This document shows positions 26,048 to 47,040 of a DNA stretch of 59,893 bases, piece by piece (positions within the stretch are counted from its first letter, which is position 1; the number at the start of each line of letters is the position of its first letter). The stretch is from a virus. Under the pieces are notes generated by a model, which ran no database searches, was not told the DNA's origin, and saw only the letters and a list, made by a program, of their open reading frames with translations. Made by a program: the position numbers and the translations under genes. The stretch spans positions 1-59,893 of the IMG/VR virus record IMGVR_UViG_3300028595_000001; one strand, written 5' to 3'.

Positions 26048-26052
26048 CTTGC

Positions 26053-26084
26053 CCACTTGACAATTCAGTCAAGCGGCCTGTTTT
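26053..26084 (+). terminator. Terminator of the rightward late operon
   Basis: CCACTTGAC (26053-26061) pairs with GTCAAGCGG (26068-26076), with one G-U wobble and loop AATTCA, followed by CCTGTTTT. It stands between convergent operons. The 3' half lies inside the 29-bp direct repeat. Confidence 0.6.
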
Positions 26085-26355
26085 AGTCAACTACATATTG
26101 GTTCAAGACAGTTCATATTAAAATGCATTTTTTTACCGTACATCCATGTTTTGCACGTGCAATAATGACTGTTGTGTATTTTAGTGATAATCAATTCGAT
26201 GCCGCCCATATCTCCACGGGTCTTAACCTTTTGACCAACATAAAACTTATTCTTACAGTCGTTTGATAGTGACCATTTCATTCTTGATTCTTCTTTTTTA
26301 GGAACTATCATATTCCCCCCTTTTCTATTCAGTCAAGCGGCCTGTTTTAGTCAAC
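26063..26355. repeat. 29-bp direct repeat flanking the last leftward gene
   Basis: Identical copies at 26063-26091 and 26327-26355. On the minus strand each begins GTTGACTAAAACAGGCC. The right copy supplies the last codons and stop of the 26347-26709 gene, the left copy the end region of the 26087-26311 gene. The small gene between them looks like an inserted cassette that duplicated its neighbour's 3' end. Confidence 0.8.
26087..26311 (-). CDS. Small uncharacterised protein, end of leftward operon
   Basis: 74 residues, AAAGGGGGG upstream. An internal Met at residue 11 is an alternative start. It contains FYVGQKVKTRGDMGGIELII, reminiscent of small SH3-like barrels, and a Cys-Thr-Cys plus later Cys residues. 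Flanked on both sides by a 29-bp direct repeat. No function recognised. Confidence 0.55.
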   Translation of the reverse strand: MIVPKKEESRMKWSLSNDCKNKFYVGQKVKTRGDMGGIELIITKIHNSHYCTCKTWMYGKKMHFNMNCLEPICS

Positions 26356-30098: not shown

Positions 30099-30124
30099 TT
30101 TCACATCCCCTTTTTTTTAGAATC

Positions 30125-30194
30125 CCCACCGGCCTGCCACGTGTTGGAAATGCGACCCCGCATTTGTGGCCCGGTTCATCCGGGGGCCGGTGGG
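30125..30194 (-). ncRNA. Three-way-junction structured leader of the leftward transcript
   Basis: Stem P1 pairs 30125-30134 with 30185-30194 (10 bp, perfect). Inside, P2 pairs 30136-30140 with 30066+100-30170 (GCCAC/GTGGC) and continues after a 7-base bulge into AAATGCG/CGCATTT (30148-30154, 30159-30165) with a 4-base loop. P3 pairs 30171-30174 with 30180-30183 (CCGG/CCGG). Only two or three bases at the junction are unpaired. The predicted start of the leftward transcript is about 30196, so the structure forms the very 5' end of the message. No T-run follows, so it is not a simple terminator. Role unknown; candidates are cis-acting antitermination RNA, a ligand sensor or mRNA protection. Confidence 0.7.
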
Positions 30195-30202
30195 TTGATT
30201 AC

Positions 30203-30292: not shown

Positions 30293-30322
30293 TTGACATT
30301 ATTTTCAAAATGTGAATAGTAT
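30293..30322 (+). promoter_or_regulatory. Rightward early promoter
   Basis: TTGACA (30293-30298), 18-base spacer, TAGTAT (30317-30322). Transcription should start near 30329, within two bases of the ATG at 30331, so the first message would be leaderless. Confidence 0.7.
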
Positions 30323-30330
30323 ATAGAACC

Positions 30331-30558
30331 ATGCAAACCAAACCATACAAAATCAACGGCATAAACAGGCTCGCAAAAGACAACGGGCTAAATCCATCAA
30401 CACTCCACAATATCCTATACGGAAACCGTGGGGCATCAAACAAGGCCATCAGGCGGTTGGTTTCAATCTTCCCTGCAACTGATGAGGCTATGTGGGTCAA
30501 CGGCGACCGTGATGCTTTGGTTAAGGCGTTGGGGCTGAAAAAGGTTTTTTATGTTTAA
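30331..30558 (+). CDS. Small Cro/CI-like HTH regulator, probably leaderless
   Basis: 75 residues. INRLAKDNGLNPSTLHNILYG is a helix-turn-helix with the usual Ala and Ser/Thr positions, followed by a third helix (NKAIRRLVSIFP). There is no Shine-Dalgarno and the predicted transcription start lies about 2 bases before the ATG, as in lambda cI mRNA. It sits between divergent early promoters, so it probably represses one or both. It has no C-terminal dimerisation/peptidase domain, so it is Cro-like in size. No integrase was found, so its presence does not prove a temperate life. Confidence 0.7.
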   Translation: MQTKPYKINGINRLAKDNGLNPSTLHNILYGNRGASNKAIRRLVSIFPATDEAMWVNGDRDALVKALGLKKVFYV

Positions 30559-32432: not shown

Positions 32433-32657
32433 ATGAAAACATCAATAGTAGTGCTCGCGTTTTTTATTGGCGTCCTATTACAAATTTTATACCCAAGCGA
32501 ATATTACAACGTAGATACCACCGCCCCAACCCTAGATTTCGTGGAAATTAGCGAATCAGGAGACTTTGATATAGACTACGATGAAGACTTTATTTTTGAT
32601 TGTGCTGACGATTTCTCGTGGCCCAGAAGGGCAATAGTAATCCGATCACGTATATAG
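32433..32657 (+). CDS. Membrane-anchored acidic protein
   Basis: 74 residues, AAAGGATGAG before the ATG. One N-terminal membrane segment (IVVLAFFIGVLLQILYP) is followed by a very acidic tail (DFDIDYDEDFIFDCADDF). Topology suggests a cytoplasmic or periplasmic acidic domain. Unknown function. A new promoter starts 12 bases after its stop. Confidence 0.55.
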   Translation: MKTSIVVLAFFIGVLLQILYPSEYYNVDTTAPTLDFVEISESGDFDIDYDEDFIFDCADDFSWPRRAIVIRSRI

Positions 32658-32669
32658 CGGGAATGGCGC

Positions 32670-32698
32670 TTGACACCCAACCCGTAGTATAGTATATA
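32670..32698 (+). promoter_or_regulatory. Strong internal sigma70-type promoter
   Basis: TTGACA (32670-32675), exactly 17 bases, TATATA (32693-32698). Start near 32705. This is one of the best consensus matches in the window and lies directly before a hairpin-rich region and terminator. Confidence 0.75.
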
Positions 32699-32704
32699 AC
32701 AGAT

Positions 32705-32824
32705 ACAAAGGACATCCAGAATGAAGACGGCACGCTTCATAATTAAATCTTTAAAATTAGAAAAAGTCCCAGGACAACACAAACGCCCGTTTGTGGGGGG
32801 TGCCGCCCTGTTCTGGGGCTTTTT
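32705..32824 (+). ncRNA. Candidate small RNA or attenuated leader
   Basis: About 120 bases between a strong promoter and a terminator. It includes an 8-bp hairpin CACAAACG/CGTTTGTG (32778-32785, 32788-32795) nested in a CCCAGGACA/TGTTCTGGG stem. A possible leader peptide (ATG 32721, 37 codons, AAAGGA 9 bases before) reads MKTARFIIKSLKLEKVPGQ and would run through the terminator, so on a terminated transcript it has no stop. It may be a regulatory RNA, or a leader peptide controlling read-through into the replication genes. Confidence 0.5.
32805..32824 (+). terminator. Rho-independent terminator before the replication genes
   Basis: GCCC (32805-32808) pairs with GGGC (32816-32819), followed by TTTTTGTGCTTTT. 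The larger alternative stem CCCAGGACA (32768-32776) with TGTTCTGGG (32809-32817) ends at the same T-run. The two stems are mutually exclusive in part, so switching is possible. Confidence 0.6.
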
Positions 32825-32845
32825 GTGCTTTTAAAGGATACTATT

Positions 32846-32989
32846 ATGAAACAAGGCCGGATCGATTATTTAATCTATCACATAGACAGATTAATTGAAC
32901 AATACGACACCATCATTAAATACACAAATGATGTTGATACGATTGTCGAATATCTAAATTGCCATGTTGAATGGCTGGTTGGTAAATAG
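32846..32989 (+). CDS. 47-residue helical protein
   Basis: ATG 32846 follows AAAGGATACTATT. Predicted almost entirely helical (DYLIYHIDRLIEQYDTII, then a second helix ending in EWLVGK). It sits 2 bases before the replication gene, so it is probably translated together with it. Unknown function. Confidence 0.5.
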   Translation: MKQGRIDYLIYHIDRLIEQYDTIIKYTNDVDTIVEYLNCHVEWLVGK

Positions 32990-32991
32990 GC

Positions 32992-33741
32992 ATGAATAGA
33001 GGCTACATAGCAATTTGGCGAAAAATCCAAGACCATCCATTCTATAAAGAACCTAGGGAGTTTTCTAAATACGAAGCTTGGTTGGATTTGCTGATGGAGG
33101 CTCAACATAATAAAGAACCAAGGGAGGTTATTTTAGGCATGAATGTATTGACATGCCATTATGGAGAAACCCTTAAATCCATAAAAACATGGTCGAGCCG
33201 ATGGATGTGGACAAGGTCAAAAGTGTTTCGCTTCTTAAAACTGCTAAAAAAGATGAACCAAATCCGATACACAAGCGAAAAGATAACGACACGGATTAAG
33301 ATAATAAATTATGAGTGTTACGACCCAAGGCGAAACGCAGATGAAACGCAGATGAAACGCAAGCGAAACGATCATGAAACAGTTGCGAACACAGACAAGA
33401 ATGTAAAGAATAATAATACCCCCCCTACCCCCCTTTCAATGGGAACCATATATTCAAAGTCATTTTTAGATTGGTACGAATTATATCCAGAAAAAAAAGG
33501 CAAGGGGGCGGCTTATAGATCCTGGCAAAAAATTGGGAAGAAGGGGATTGTCACACCGAATGAATTAATGGCCGCTATTGCAGCCCAGGTTAAGGCCAAT
33601 CATTTCCGAGGGCGGGACGGCCAGGATTACATACCCAATCCATCAACGTGGCTTAATCAAAACCGATGGGAAGACGAGATAAAAAATAATAAAGCTCAAT
33701 CAAACACATTGCCTGAAGTCATGGAGAATCCATATGGATGA
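32992..33741 (+). CDS. Replication initiator / helicase loader-like protein
   Basis: 249 residues. The N-terminus (GYIAIWRKIQDHPFYKEPREF, then SKYEAWLDLLMEA) and the following winged-helix region with WSSRWMWTRSKVFRFLKLL match the phage replisome organiser N-terminal domain. After a Thr/Asn/Pro linker, residues about 155-235 (LDWYELYPEKKGKGAAYRSW, IPNPSTWLNQNRWEDE) resemble the DnaD/DnaT-like primosome module. It overlaps the DnaB-type helicase gene by 8 bases. It presumably binds the origin and loads the helicase. Confidence 0.75.
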   Translation: MNRGYIAIWRKIQDHPFYKEPREFSKYEAWLDLLMEAQHNKEPREVILGMNVLTCHYGETLKSIKTWSSRWMWTRSKVFRFLKLLKKMNQIRYTSEKITTRIKIINYECYDPRRNADETQMKRKRNDHETVANTDKNVKNNNTPPTPLSMGTIYSKSFLDWYELYPEKKGKGAAYRSWQKIGKKGIVTPNELMAAIAAQVKANHFRGRDGQDYIPNPSTWLNQNRWEDEIKNNKAQSNTLPEVMENPYG

Positions 33742-35056
33742 CCTACACAAACTGCCGCCTCAATCCATCGAAACCGAGGAATCCGTACTGGCCTACTGTT
33801 TGCTTCACGATCCGGCAGACGCTATAGAGTCCTTGTTACCAGACCACTTCTACAAAACAGCCAACAAAACAATATTTGAAGCAATGTCAGAGCTTTACTC
33901 ACAAAATGAACCAATAGACATTGCGTTGTTGGTAAATCATTTAAGGGGGAAAGGAGATTTAGAACAGATTGGGGGTGCAACATATTTATCGAAGCTTATG
34001 GATACAGTACCCGCATCATCAAATATCTTTTATCACATTAAAATAATTAGGGATAAGGCAATAAAGCGAAGATTAATAGAAACGGTCAACCAGATTTCCA
34101 ACCAATGTTTTGAAGACCATGAATCCGTTGAAACCATCCTTGACCGGTCACAAAGGGACATCCTGGCGATTGATTACAAGCAAGACAGGGATGCAAAGCC
34201 TGTTTGCGAAATATTGGACGATGTAATTAGCCGAATAGAGGAAAGATCAACAGGAGGTCCAACAGGAATTAAAAGCGGGATAAGTCGCATTGATTTATTG
34301 CTTGGTGGTTTTCAACCCGGCGACTCAATTATTTTGGCAGGCAGGCCATCGATGGGTAAAACGAGCCTTGCCCTAAATTTTATCAATTACGCTTCGGTTG
34401 ATTGTAACATACCATCCGCGATTTTTTCGCTGGAAATGGCGAAGGGGCCGTTGGTGCAACGCTTATTGTCAATGGATGGACGGGTTGATGGTGGAAAATT
34501 CCTAAACAATATGTTCGTTTCCGACGATTGGGACCGGATAACCGATGCCGCCGGTAGAATAGCCGAGGCTCCGATTTACATCGATGATAGGTCTGGTTTG
34601 AGCTACATGGAGGTTAGTCGGTCACTCCGAAAATTGGTCAAAAAACATGGCGTTGAAATAGCGGTGATTGATTATTTACAACTTATGACCGGAGATAGAA
34701 AAGAGGGTCGAACCAGGGAAATCGGATCAATTAGCCGGGCGATAAAAGGCATGGCTAAGGAAAACGGCATACCCATTATTGCTATTTGCCAGCTTTCCAG
34801 GGGGTGCGAACAAAGGGCAGACAAAAGGCCGATGTTGTCCGATTTGCGAGACTCAGGGGAGATTGAACAGGATGCCGATGTTGTCATGTTCATTTATCGG
34901 GATGAAGTTTATTACCCTCAATCTGACAAAAAGGGAACAGCAGAAATATTAATCCGAAAACACCGCAACGGTGCGATAGGTCAAGTAACAATGTCATTTT
35001 TAAAGTCCTATCAAAGGTTTGAGCAGTTGGAAGAAAGATATGGTGATTATTCTTAA
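33734..35056 (+). CDS. dnaB: DnaB-type replicative helicase
   Basis: 440 residues, near the usual 450-470. N-terminal helical domain opens with PQSIETEESVLAYCLL. The RecA-like core has Walker A GRPSMGKT (203-210), the IFSLEMAKGPL segment, the Walker B IAVIDYLQLM, and ICQLSRGCEQRADKRPMLSDL with the DLRDSGEIEQDADVVMFIYR arginine-finger region. A hexameric 5'-3' helicase that unwinds at the phage fork. No polymerase or primase gene was recognised, so the rest of the replisome is probably the host's. Confidence 0.9.
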   Translation: MDDLHKLPPQSIETEESVLAYCLLHDPADAIESLLPDHFYKTANKTIFEAMSELYSQNEPIDIALLVNHLRGKGDLEQIGGATYLSKLMDTVPASSNIFYHIKIIRDKAIKRRLIETVNQISNQCFEDHESVETILDRSQRDILAIDYKQDRDAKPVCEILDDVISRIEERSTGGPTGIKSGISRIDLLLGGFQPGDSIILAGRPSMGKTSLALNFINYASVDCNIPSAIFSLEMAKGPLVQRLLSMDGRVDGGKFLNNMFVSDDWDRITDAAGRIAEAPIYIDDRSGLSYMEVSRSLRKLVKKHGVEIAVIDYLQLMTGDRKEGRTREIGSISRAIKGMAKENGIPIIAICQLSRGCEQRADKRPMLSDLRDSGEIEQDADVVMFIYRDEVYYPQSDKKGTAEILIRKHRNGAIGQVTMSFLKSYQRFEQLEERYGDYS

Positions 35057-36530: not shown

Positions 36531-36704
36531 ATGGAAAAAATTATTATGGAAGATGATATAGAAGACGAAGAAAGATATTGTTACCGATGCGACAATCAAG
36601 GAACCATCTTGATTTGTCCCGATGATATGTGTCAGGGACTTGGTTATTGTATACACGGTGATGGTGAAATCGTTTGTCCTGATTGTAAAGGGACGCGCAT
36701 ATAA
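36531..36704 (+). CDS. DnaJ-type zinc-finger-like small protein
   Basis: 57 residues. Cys-Tyr-Arg-Cys-Asp-Asn-Gln-Gly, then Cys-Gln-Gly-Leu-Gly, then Cys-Pro-Asp-Cys-Lys-Gly resemble the CxxCxGxG pattern of the DnaJ central zinc domain. GGGGGGGAT precedes the ATG. Its stop lies inside the 40-bp repeat that copies the MazG-like gene's 3' end. Confidence 0.55.
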   Translation: MEKIIMEDDIEDEERYCYRCDNQGTILICPDDMCQGLGYCIHGDGEIVCPDCKGTRI

Positions 36705-36763
36705 GCACGGCGGGAAAAAATTTTAAACGCTTTGACGGGGTCTGGCAAACAAAAGGAGAAACG

Positions 36764-37028: not shown

Positions 37029-37367
37029 ATGGAATGGAAATCAGAGTGGATTTCTTTTAACGAGTTGGCGCAGGAAGTTAATCAAACCGCAATTGAAAAG
37101 GGTTGGTGGGAGGGAGAGCGAAACGAAGGCGAATTGATTGCTTTAATGCACTCCGAATTATCTGAGGCGCTTGAAGCGTTGCGCCACGGTAATCCACCTG
37201 ATGATAAAATACCGGAATTTTCAGGAGTTGAGGCCGAACTCGCAGATGTTATTATCCGAATTATGGATATGGCAGCGGCGAAAAATTATCGCGTTGGTGA
37301 CGCTGTACTTGCTAAAATTAAACACAATAAGGGACGCGCATATAAGCACGGCGGGAAGAAATTTTAA
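37029..37367 (+). CDS. MazG-like nucleotide pyrophosphohydrolase
   Basis: 112 residues from ATG 37029, which follows CAAGGAGAGAATCAA. HSELSEALEAL (41-51) and EAELADVIIRIMD (68-80) are the paired acidic helices that bind magnesium in all-alpha NTP pyrophosphohydrolases. A conserved Lys/Asn turn near the end precedes GRAYKHGGKKF. Phage MazG-type enzymes cleave dNTPs or the alarmone pool and keep the host metabolically active during infection. Confidence 0.8.
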   Translation: MEWKSEWISFNELAQEVNQTAIEKGWWEGERNEGELIALMHSELSEALEALRHGNPPDDKIPEFSGVEAELADVIIRIMDMAAAKNYRVGDAVLAKIKHNKGRAYKHGGKKF

Positions 37368-37378
37368 AAGGAGAAACG

Positions 37379-45530: not shown

Positions 45531-46198
45531 GCCTCATGGTTTGGCTGCTAAGCATTGACAAGTTTACCGGTTTTCACGCTATAAACAGGGTACGGCGCTT
45601 TTCCACTTTCAAACCAATCATGGCCGAAACAATAACCACGATTATTTTCATGGGATATTCCATCAACTACATACTCTCTAATTTGTTCCTTGATGTCTAA
45701 AGGGTTCATCAAGTAAACTGCACCCGGAGCGCAAGGTGAGCAAAACTGGGCATATGTAAAGTACGGGCTTTTCATAATAAAAATATCGCAATCATCTTGT
45801 GATTGATGTGCCTCGTACCCATCGCCTACGTAATAAAAACAGATAGGATCTTCGGGCCAAATGTCAGGGTTGTTACTATCGACGCCTTTTTCGCAATGAA
45901 CGCAAAAATACTCGTCAATTACTTCGTTGCCTTCGTTGTCTTGCATTGGGCCACCCTCAAAACTGAAATCGGCTGTTTCATCGATCTCATTGAAGCAATC
46001 AGGGCAAAACGGTTTTCCGTACTCGCCCTCGCTTTCATCATACCAAGCTTGGCCGACTTCGTTGGCAGGGATAACCCCATAACGAAAATTACCGTCTGTG
46101 TTTGTCTTGCCCAAACCGTAATCAATGCCCGCATAATCTGTTTTCATGGTTTAATCCTTTCTATACAATAAGCTTGTGCCTCATGGTTTGGCTGCTAA
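45531..46198. repeat. 21-bp direct repeat at the 3' ends of two adjacent genes
   Basis: 45531-45551 and 46178-46198 are identical. On the minus strand each starts TTAGCAGCCAAACCATGAGG and supplies the stop codon (TAG) of the 45548 gene and of the ArdC-like gene. The leaders of the same two genes also share 20 identical bases (46145-46164 and 47038-47057). Confidence 0.8.
45548..46147 (-). CDS. Uncharacterised protein with two Cys pairs
   Basis: 199 residues with AGAAAGGATTAAACC before the ATG. KPFCPDCFNEIDE and YFCVHCEKGVD form a zinc ribbon. Further parts are Asp/Glu-rich (FYYVGDGYEAHQSQDDCDIF). It lies next to the ArdC-like gene and shares both its leader and its 3' end sequence. Unknown role, perhaps linked to antirestriction. 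Confidence 0.55.
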   Translation of the reverse strand: MKTDYAGIDYGLGKTNTDGNFRYGVIPANEVGQAWYDESEGEYGKPFCPDCFNEIDETADFSFEGGPMQDNEGNEVIDEYFCVHCEKGVDSNNPDIWPEDPICFYYVGDGYEAHQSQDDCDIFIMKSPYFTYAQFCSPCAPGAVYLMNPLDIKEQIREYVVDGISHENNRGYCFGHDWFESGKAPYPVYSVKTGKLVNA

Positions 46199-47040
46199 TC
46201 GTTAAATGTAACTCCTAAAATATAGTCGGTTGATTTTTGGGCTTGAGCGGCTGCATGGACTAACCATTTCTTGTTGTTCTTAAGCCTTTTCATCCAATTT
46301 TTGATATAGGCGGCAGAATTATCAATCGTTTTGTTCTCAATTCCGGTTTTGCCGCAAAGAAACGCCGCGCCCATTTCGGCGACTAACTCTTCCTTGCTAT
46401 AGTCTTTAGTTCCGAACCGGTGGCTTGTTTTTTCTTTCGTGTGTCGGCCTAATCGGCCATCATGCCCGGTTGAATGTGTCAATTCATGGAAAAGTGTGCT
46501 ATAGTACTTTTCAGCGTCGATAAAGTGACCACGGTCCGGCATACCGATAGAATCAGTCGATGGCCGATAAAATGCACCCGTTTGACCGTGCTCCACTTTC
46601 GGCTTGTTGGGCATACCAGCTACAAGTTTTTCACAAGCTTCGATAGCTGGTATGTCTTTCAGTTCTGGCTTAGGGTAATCAATATCATCGCATTGAACAG
46701 CATTGAAAACCGTATAATACCGGAGGATAGGAAACCGCTTTATGCTTCCGTCTTGATCCTCTTTGTCTATCCACTTCCAAAAAATAACCGGTGTCCCTTT
46801 TTCACCCTTGCGAACGGAGCCTTTAAGTTTTTTGGCTTGTTTATAGGTCAGCCAATAAGGACAAGCAAAACCTTGCACTGCCAGCATAAAAGGATTAATC
46901 CCCCTGTACGGCTTCTTTGAAACCAGGTTTTGCGGATCAATGCCGCTACCAGCCCATGGTTTCTGCCATGGTAAAAGGTTGTCTTTTTCAACCGCTTGTT
47001 CGATACGATCAAAGATCATTTCATAGATTTTTTGGCTCAT
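46195..47040 (-). CDS. ardC: ArdC-like antirestriction protein
   Basis: 281 residues, close to the 297 of plasmid ArdC. The N-terminal half (LPWQKPWAGSG, YRGINPFMLAVQGFACPYWLTYKQAKKL, GSVRKGEKGTPVIFWKW) is the single-stranded-DNA-binding domain. HELTH (185-189) followed by LGR is the zincin metallopeptidase motif. ArdC-type proteins protect entering single-stranded or newly made DNA from host restriction. AGAAAGGATTAAACC precedes the ATG. Confidence 0.85.
   Translation of the reverse strand: MSQKIYEMIFDRIEQAVEKDNLLPWQKPWAGSGIDPQNLVSKKPYRGINPFMLAVQGFACPYWLTYKQAKKLKGSVRKGEKGTPVIFWKWIDKEDQDGSIKRFPILRYYTVFNAVQCDDIDYPKPELKDIPAIEACEKLVAGMPNKPKVEHGQTGAFYRPSTDSIGMPDRGHFIDAEKYYSTLFHELTHSTGHDGRLGRHTKEKTSHRFGTKDYSKEELVAEMGAAFLCGKTGIENKTIDNSAAYIKNWMKRLKNNKKWLVHAAAQAQKSTDYILGVTFND

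Follow-up and report, generated by a model that had tools for sequence, protein, structure and literature searches.

A putative conditional terminator heading the replication operon of a phage

Accounts of early replication in phages usually invoke repressors and antitermination proteins, and a compact RNA switch directly before an initiator gene would offer a new handle on timing or limiting phage replication. A promoter followed at once by a terminator that controls what lies beyond is familiar from lambda pR'-tR', where protein Q and the qut site act at the late genes. The nearest described systems to the unit reported here are P4 and the IsrK RNA of prophage Gifsy-1. In P4, premature transcription termination via complementary leader segments silences the replication genes (PMC4825925). 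From one promoter in Gifsy-1 come IsrK, a short RNA that runs to an intrinsic terminator, and a read-through mRNA with a small ORF repressed by pairing (PMC4825925). Two further systems place a terminator inside a reading frame: the pyrBI attenuator, whose terminator sits inside the leader peptide gene ahead of the operon (PMC4824070), and the nonstop genes arfA and brfA, which yield RNA without a stop codon (PMC8012679).

The locus compared with these systems lies in an IMG/VR virus record, of which all 59,893 bases were analysed (hereafter the window). It resembles lambda pR'-tR' in having a promoter-like sequence directly before a terminator, placed before replication genes rather than at late genes. 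Like P4, it would place termination ahead of phage replication genes, and the complementary leader segment recurs in its relatives; in contrast to the P4 CI RNA with its seqA and seqC segments, the complement falls within the terminator hairpin's own loop, and no Rfam family matches. The likeness to IsrK lies in the promoter and terminator and in the dual transcripts predicted from the sequence, whereas IsrK leads to an anti-repressor gene and the window unit to replication genes. For IsrK, the excerpted text of PMC4825925 describes no pairing between a 5' segment and the terminator loop and no common sequence is known; literature searches likewise brought up no description of an RNA whose 5' segment pairs with its own terminator loop. 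The unit adds to phage leader-RNA control, perhaps as a class of its own.

The unit in the window

The window encodes a P22-type portal, both terminase subunits and a scaffold protein, with a head protein match at its very start. A rightward early region opens with a small HTH protein at 30331 and continues over small ORFs to Rep and then DnaB. The PHROG families matched by Rep are DnaD-like helicase loaders and initiators. A tblastn alignment spanning 97% of the 130-aa query puts its identity to the SPP1 gene 38 product at 40.8%, with homology at the N terminus. A preliminary description of this DNA had placed a compact promoter-hairpin-terminator unit ahead of replication genes, and the two genes downstream bear out that position (Table 1).

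Table 1. Features of the promoter, hairpin and terminator unit and of the genes that follow it
Feature	Position in window	Strand	Description
Sigma70-type promoter (putative)	32670-32698	+	TTGACA 32670-32675, 17-nt spacer, TATATA 32693-32698
Shine-Dalgarno-like AAAGGA	32707-32712	+	8 nt before ATG of ORF A (direct reading)
5' hairpin HP1	32721-32740	+	AUGAAG/CUUCAU; 8-nt loop ACGGCACG (32727-32734); pair probability 0.88-1.0
ORF A	32721-32834	+	37 codons, crosses terminator
Extended imperfect inverted repeat	32736-32850	+	
Intrinsic terminator hairpin	32761-32824	+	15-bp stem 32761-32775/32810-32824; A-tract against U-tract at foot
Inner hairpin P5	32778-32795	+	CACAAAC/GUUUGUG
Inner hairpin P6	32796-32809	+	6-nt loop GUGCCG (32800-32805); pair probability only 0.23-0.40
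ORF B	32846-32989	+	47 codons; AAAGGA 32833-32838 overlaps ORF A stop
Rep	32992-33741	+	DnaD-like replication initiator/helicase loader; relative of SPP1 gene 38 product
Iterons	33332-33386	+	five tandem 11-bp GAAACGCAGAT-like iterons, GAAACG-type; inside rep; AT-rich sequence follows
DnaB-type replicative helicase	33734-35056	+	

The TTGACA-17-TATATA sequence noted earlier is present; it occupies a 63-nt gap between ORFs that are otherwise closely packed, and transcription is predicted to start at about 32705. TATATA matches TATAAT at only 4 of 6 positions and makes an imperfect -10 box. A consensus scan of the 10-kb region returned 22 promoter sites against 20.6 in shuffles, that is, no excess, and the window promoter is absent from its list because TATATA fails the rule requiring T at position 6. 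Early transcription could also start at a promoter-like site at 30293.

The terminator hairpin (-32.7 kcal/mol) has no equal among the terminator-like hairpins on either strand of the window, the runner-up reaching -22.7 kcal/mol, and its stem encloses the two hairpins P5 and P6. The nested hairpins of the earlier account are real: the fold of 32704-32828 reaches -42.8 kcal/mol (z -3.94) and that of 32705-32860 reaches -57.8 kcal/mol (z -5.72), with none of 200 shuffles as good, and the observation in the window is more than chance. Some details required correction. The terminator read as GCCC/GGGC plus a T-run exists, but its stem is the 15-bp one and GCCC/GGGC is a minor inner alternative; the hairpin unit, taken to end at 32834, is embedded in an inverted repeat that reaches about 32850. 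Overlapping stems had been suggested to compete, and such competition is predicted in relatives such as L208, L212 and L214, but the window's own fold is governed by the large terminator stem, with pair probabilities of 0.58-1.0. The P6 loop is the complement of part of the HP1 loop (CGGCAC, 32728-32733).

Known RNA families offer no counterpart. Rfam 15 gave no match in the window at the gathering threshold, and a search of 32640-32880 at E of at most 5 returned only mir-578 (17.5 bits against a threshold of 98). There were no Rfam matches in a set of 13 loci and only a weak tRNA, in L169, among 15 unit-bearing loci. Direct DNA relatives of the unit were sought in the phage collection, and none of note was found.

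Layout and loop complementarity in relatives

Scans with Rep, DnaB and the iteron pattern yielded loci from 116 distinct groups in which Rep was matched; the start and the upstream sequence were both usable in 107. The frequencies below are not population frequencies, because the loci are interrelated and many were found through the Rep motif or the iteron pattern. The window belongs to a clade of 12 Rep groups, 8 of which carry a promoter-like site and a terminator upstream of Rep (the window, L002, L100, L204, L208, L209, L212 and L214); in the other four (L201, L210, L211 and L213), the upstream stretch covered holds no unit. In L100, whose Rep is 63% identical, a terminator of -44.5 kcal/mol stands at the same place with quite different sequence, followed by a 48-codon ORF and Rep. 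TTGACA-17 sites and large terminators precede Rep in L204, L208, L209, L212 and L214, with -10 boxes that vary and a poor one in L209. In L002, TTGAAA-17-AATAAT is accompanied by a terminator that lies 441 nt upstream of Rep, and L260, with a Rep of 39% identity, also has a unit. Among 11 sigma70-type units, from which the later addition L002 is excluded, TTGAC lies within 110 nt of the terminator in 10, including the window, and within 90 nt in 7, compared to 21 of 224 control terminators. Judged by sequence, the promoter, hairpin and terminator layout before Rep is conserved though the sequences are unrelated.

Eight named phages with a related Rep (three Vibrio phages, phages of Staphylococcus, Bacillus, Anoxybacillus and Enterococcus, and SPP1), drawn from 76 and 91 such records, have no unit within 1.5 kb. 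In genome contigs, query A1 found no relative of Rep and query A3 found one, in a Cytophagales MAG. Relatives found via the portal were too distant to help.

In L208, L212 and L214, the RNA begins with bases that can pair with the terminator loop at 15 to 22 positions, the sequence being different in each. A wider survey took, for each Rep group, the terminator stem that scored best in the 700 nt upstream. A stem score of at least 24 was reached in 42 of the 107 groups, and 33 of these passed a filter on loop (10-60 nt) and flank. Addition of L212 by hand after reading brought the set to 34, while nine terminators were dropped, among them that of L002, whose loop is 61 nt and which is not in the 34. 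Pairing was scored by the longest Watson-Crick run that the loop can form with 90 nt of 5' flank; this measure replaced duplex-energy statistics because those were noisy. The mean longest run was 7.47, compared to 5.15 in dinucleotide shuffles, with 23 of the 34 at p<=0.05. In a second run with 200 shuffles, 20 of 34 reached p<=0.05, while among 224 terminators taken from elsewhere in the retrieved records 18 did (Mann-Whitney 4e-13), and after identical segments were collapsed, runs of at least 7 occurred in 23 of 30 against 50 of 224 controls (Fisher 8e-9), both values ignoring the relatedness of the loci.

The control is conservative because some of its hits are themselves units, with promoter, complementary 5' segment and terminator, before other genes: L020 (at 478), L065 (at 2704), L069 (at 2710), L080 (at 2990) and L218 (at 1265), in records mostly fetched through DnaB, as L069 and L080 were. 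By our reading of the proteins, the L020 unit is followed after 18 nt by a Rep-like gene of a different kind and then by DnaB, and the L065 unit precedes a gene that reads like ParB; the L218 unit is 3.7 kb upstream of Rep. L020, L065 and L218 were chosen from the control hits for their complementarity, L218 being already known to have TTGAC nearby.

The window itself stands at the weak end of this range. Its longest run is 6 nt (p 0.27 in the free-position test), and L100 (p 0.35) and L204 (p 0.49) are not significant either; in L204, the stem had been drawn too long and the 9-bp match includes G-U. L002 has a run of 10 nt (p 0.017). With the whole 6-nt P6 loop of the window as query, a complement occurs in about 1% of shuffled 5' segments (p ~0.01), the window's copy lying in the HP1 loop. 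The window's own loop match could be chance. Alignments of the units misplace their stems, and the key pairing is a pseudoknot. Pairing is kept in many phages while the sequence turns over completely, and a search for 5' segments complementary to a terminator loop provides a rule for finding a class that sequence-based RNA libraries miss.

A second set of loci shows a related arrangement, in which a TAnnTTTG promoter box is followed by HP1, a linker and the terminator, and the HP1 loop is complementary to the terminator loop. We take TAnnTTTG to be the Bacteroidota type of promoter box; these are probably Bacteroidota phages. HP1 loop and terminator loop pair over at least 6 nt in 26 of the 107 Rep groups, compared to 1, 4 and 4 with reversed, complemented and direct controls, and over at least 7 nt in 21, compared to 0, 1 and 1. 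The box is present in only 49 of the 107 groups. The set comprises 22 different loop segments, one or two of which are rich in AT and probably spurious. In its promoter the window is like the first set, and in its match of hairpin loop to hairpin loop like the second.

An ordinary strong terminator, acting as an insulator between the early genes and the replication operon and possibly working both ways, would be in keeping with several features of the window alone: its hairpin is terminator-like on the minus strand as well, the promoter scan found no excess and did not list the site, and promoter, frame and loop match might all be there by chance. This is quite unlikely, as it leaves unexplained the promoter and terminator pairs at the same place in relatives, the recurrence of TTGAC and the excess complementarity between 5' flank and loop.

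Possible modes of action

Predicted folds of the nascent RNA suggest how the complementarity might be used. Before the 3' terminator arm is present, the helix between 5' segment and loop is complete in L208 (22 of 22 pairs), L212 (15 of 15), L214 (17 of 17), L204 (9 of 9), L218 (10 of 10) and L002 (10 of 10), nearly so in L065 (23 of 27), slight in L020 (4 of 17) and absent in the window (0 of 6). Once the 3' arm is included, the terminator becomes the best fold in L208, L214, L204, L065 and L020, whereas in L212 and L218 the helix persists. A bistable attenuator is thus well motivated in the relatives by modelled folds; in the window it is proposed only by analogy.

Because the helix can precede the terminator in several relatives, the unit is read as a conditional intrinsic terminator, or attenuator, that heads the replication operon and also releases a structured RNA of about 120 nt, a reading that we hold to be somewhat more probable than its negation. 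The preliminary description had offered a small RNA or an attenuator. The layout and the pairing of 5' flank with loop in relatives lend this comparative support; the window's own match is 6 bp and falls short of significance in the free-position test.

We infer that the unit is transcribed, terminated, read through and regulated, in the following manner. RNA polymerase would start at about 32705 and transcribe the 5' segment and then the terminator hairpin, and most transcripts would be expected to end at 32820-32824. The fraction that reads through would become the mRNA of ORF B, Rep and DnaB and would also transcribe the likely origin inside rep. The window unit would be one of a class of phage units with a 5' RNA segment complementary to their own terminator loop. 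In relatives with a long 5' segment, the helix is predicted to form before the 3' terminator arm and may therefore delay or replace the terminator, whereas in the window and in the Bacteroidota-type units a loop-loop (kissing) contact would be compatible with it. The balance might be tipped by Rep, by a host factor or, in trans, by the released RNA.

A bolder and more tentative extension, possible though on the unlikely side, is that these units form an undescribed class of phage RNA across distantly related phages with different initiators. The first bases of the transcript would pair with its own terminator loop, this early helix would let polymerase pass, and the released short RNA would compete for the same segment on new transcripts, closing the terminator as genome copies rise. 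If true, a single short RNA would govern replication, being product, target and effector together.

Action in trans might instead come first. The terminated RNA of about 120 nt would bind nascent or read-through transcripts of the operon and shut off replication in the manner of the P4 CI RNA or Gifsy-1 IsrK, read-through being minor. Both halves of the complementary pair lie on one RNA in the relatives, hence copies could pair in trans, and both systems provide precedents for a short RNA and a read-through mRNA from one phage promoter (PMC4825925). Intramolecular folding explains complementarity within a molecule equally well, however, and the window's loop match is only 6 bp. Furthermore, no phage integrase was found among the window proteins scanned, a subset of its ORFs, and there is therefore no sign of lysogenic immunity in the window. 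Primary action in trans seems rather unlikely.

The 37-codon frame reported to run through the terminator is present as ORF A and raises the question of control by a leader peptide. Translation of ORF A would open the terminator, as in pyrBI, and make the ORF B start accessible, so that expression of ORF A, ORF B, Rep and DnaB would be coupled. The AAAGGA spaced 8 nt from the ATG, the passage of the frame across the terminator and the position of the pyrBI terminator inside its leader peptide gene (PMC4824070) are in keeping with this. So are predictions for the read-through RNA (32705-32860), in which both the AAAGGA and the AUG of ORF B would be base-paired, since the inverted repeat extends beyond the terminator. 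The AUG has a predicted unpaired probability of 0.00, as would befit a hidden start of the IsrK kind, the AAAGGA one of 0.08-0.54, and the AUG becomes freer once the 5' arm is masked.

The frame itself argues against this role. In the window it stays open in 93% of hairpin shuffles, and among units of the window type it is kept through the terminator in 7 of 8 against 4.85 expected, which is not significant (P 0.09). All units taken together give 15 of 34 against 9.0 expected (P 0.001), an excess driven partly by one related subgroup, and control terminators give 34 of 224 as a raw count unmatched for composition. The peptide is not conserved: L100 likewise has a 37-codon frame across its terminator with no evident similarity to that of the window, and the L209 frame, read by eye, ends within the hairpin loop. 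Searches with the ORF A peptide found no Pfam-A family up to E 10 and no PHROG, and a degenerate-pattern scan of viral contigs gave two matches (L098 and L099) that look like chance. As composition alone would give such a frame and these searches brought up no homologue, the leader peptide is rejected as the main reading; such control is unlikely, and the frame is probably mostly incidental. Compared to pyrBI, there is no sign that peptide or translation matters. A nonstop gene of the arfA or brfA kind shares the terminator inside the frame but has 72 codons against 37 here, and an ArfA-like nonstop factor was set aside as the peptide has no Pfam support. In a related subgroup (L102, L103, L107, L110 and L140), the frame through the terminator upstream of Rep continues in phase into the next ORF, so that read-through would add about 30 residues to the next protein.

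Type III toxin-antitoxin operons carry an RNA antitoxin, built of tandem repeat units, between promoter and terminator. By analogy, excess RNA from the unit might bind or titrate Rep. The order of promoter, structured RNA, terminator and protein gene is the same, and units precede other replication-type proteins too. The unit, unlike type III antitoxins, lacks tandem repeat units, and the downstream proteins vary between phages; a partnership of this kind is most improbable.

A probable origin within rep and further elements

Read-through under a conditional terminator would reach a second element of interest. The iterons inside rep are, on sequence grounds, a probable replication origin. Similar arrays occur at the same position of rep in the relatives examined, and the repeat is shared by rep genes of distant phages, a conservation that is overstated because most of those relatives were found by patterns that include the motif; imperfect versions occur in L002 and in L100, which was retrieved with other stretches. 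SPP1 has its oriL inside the coding sequence of G38P (PMC3485210), a possible parallel to the five 11-bp iterons within rep.

Several other elements of the window were recorded. The GCTCTTWA pattern, searched as a mark of N/nut-like boxA antitermination, matches the window once, far from the unit, and this candidate was discarded. An ArdC-type anti-restriction protein gene lies at 46195-47040 on the minus strand. A 40-nt direct repeat (98% identical; 36688-36727 and 37329-37368) lies at the ends of two ORFs, which thereby share their C-terminal residues, and another repeat, of 43 nt (26049-26091 and 26313-26355), 88% identical around a perfectly matching core of ~29 nt, lies between the late and the leftward early genes. 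A leftward promoter, TTGACA-16-TATTAT, occupies 30230-30203 on the minus strand, and just downstream of it, at 30105-30200, is a branched RNA fold with a 10-bp closing stem (z -2.98), which could be an antitermination element or another leader element.
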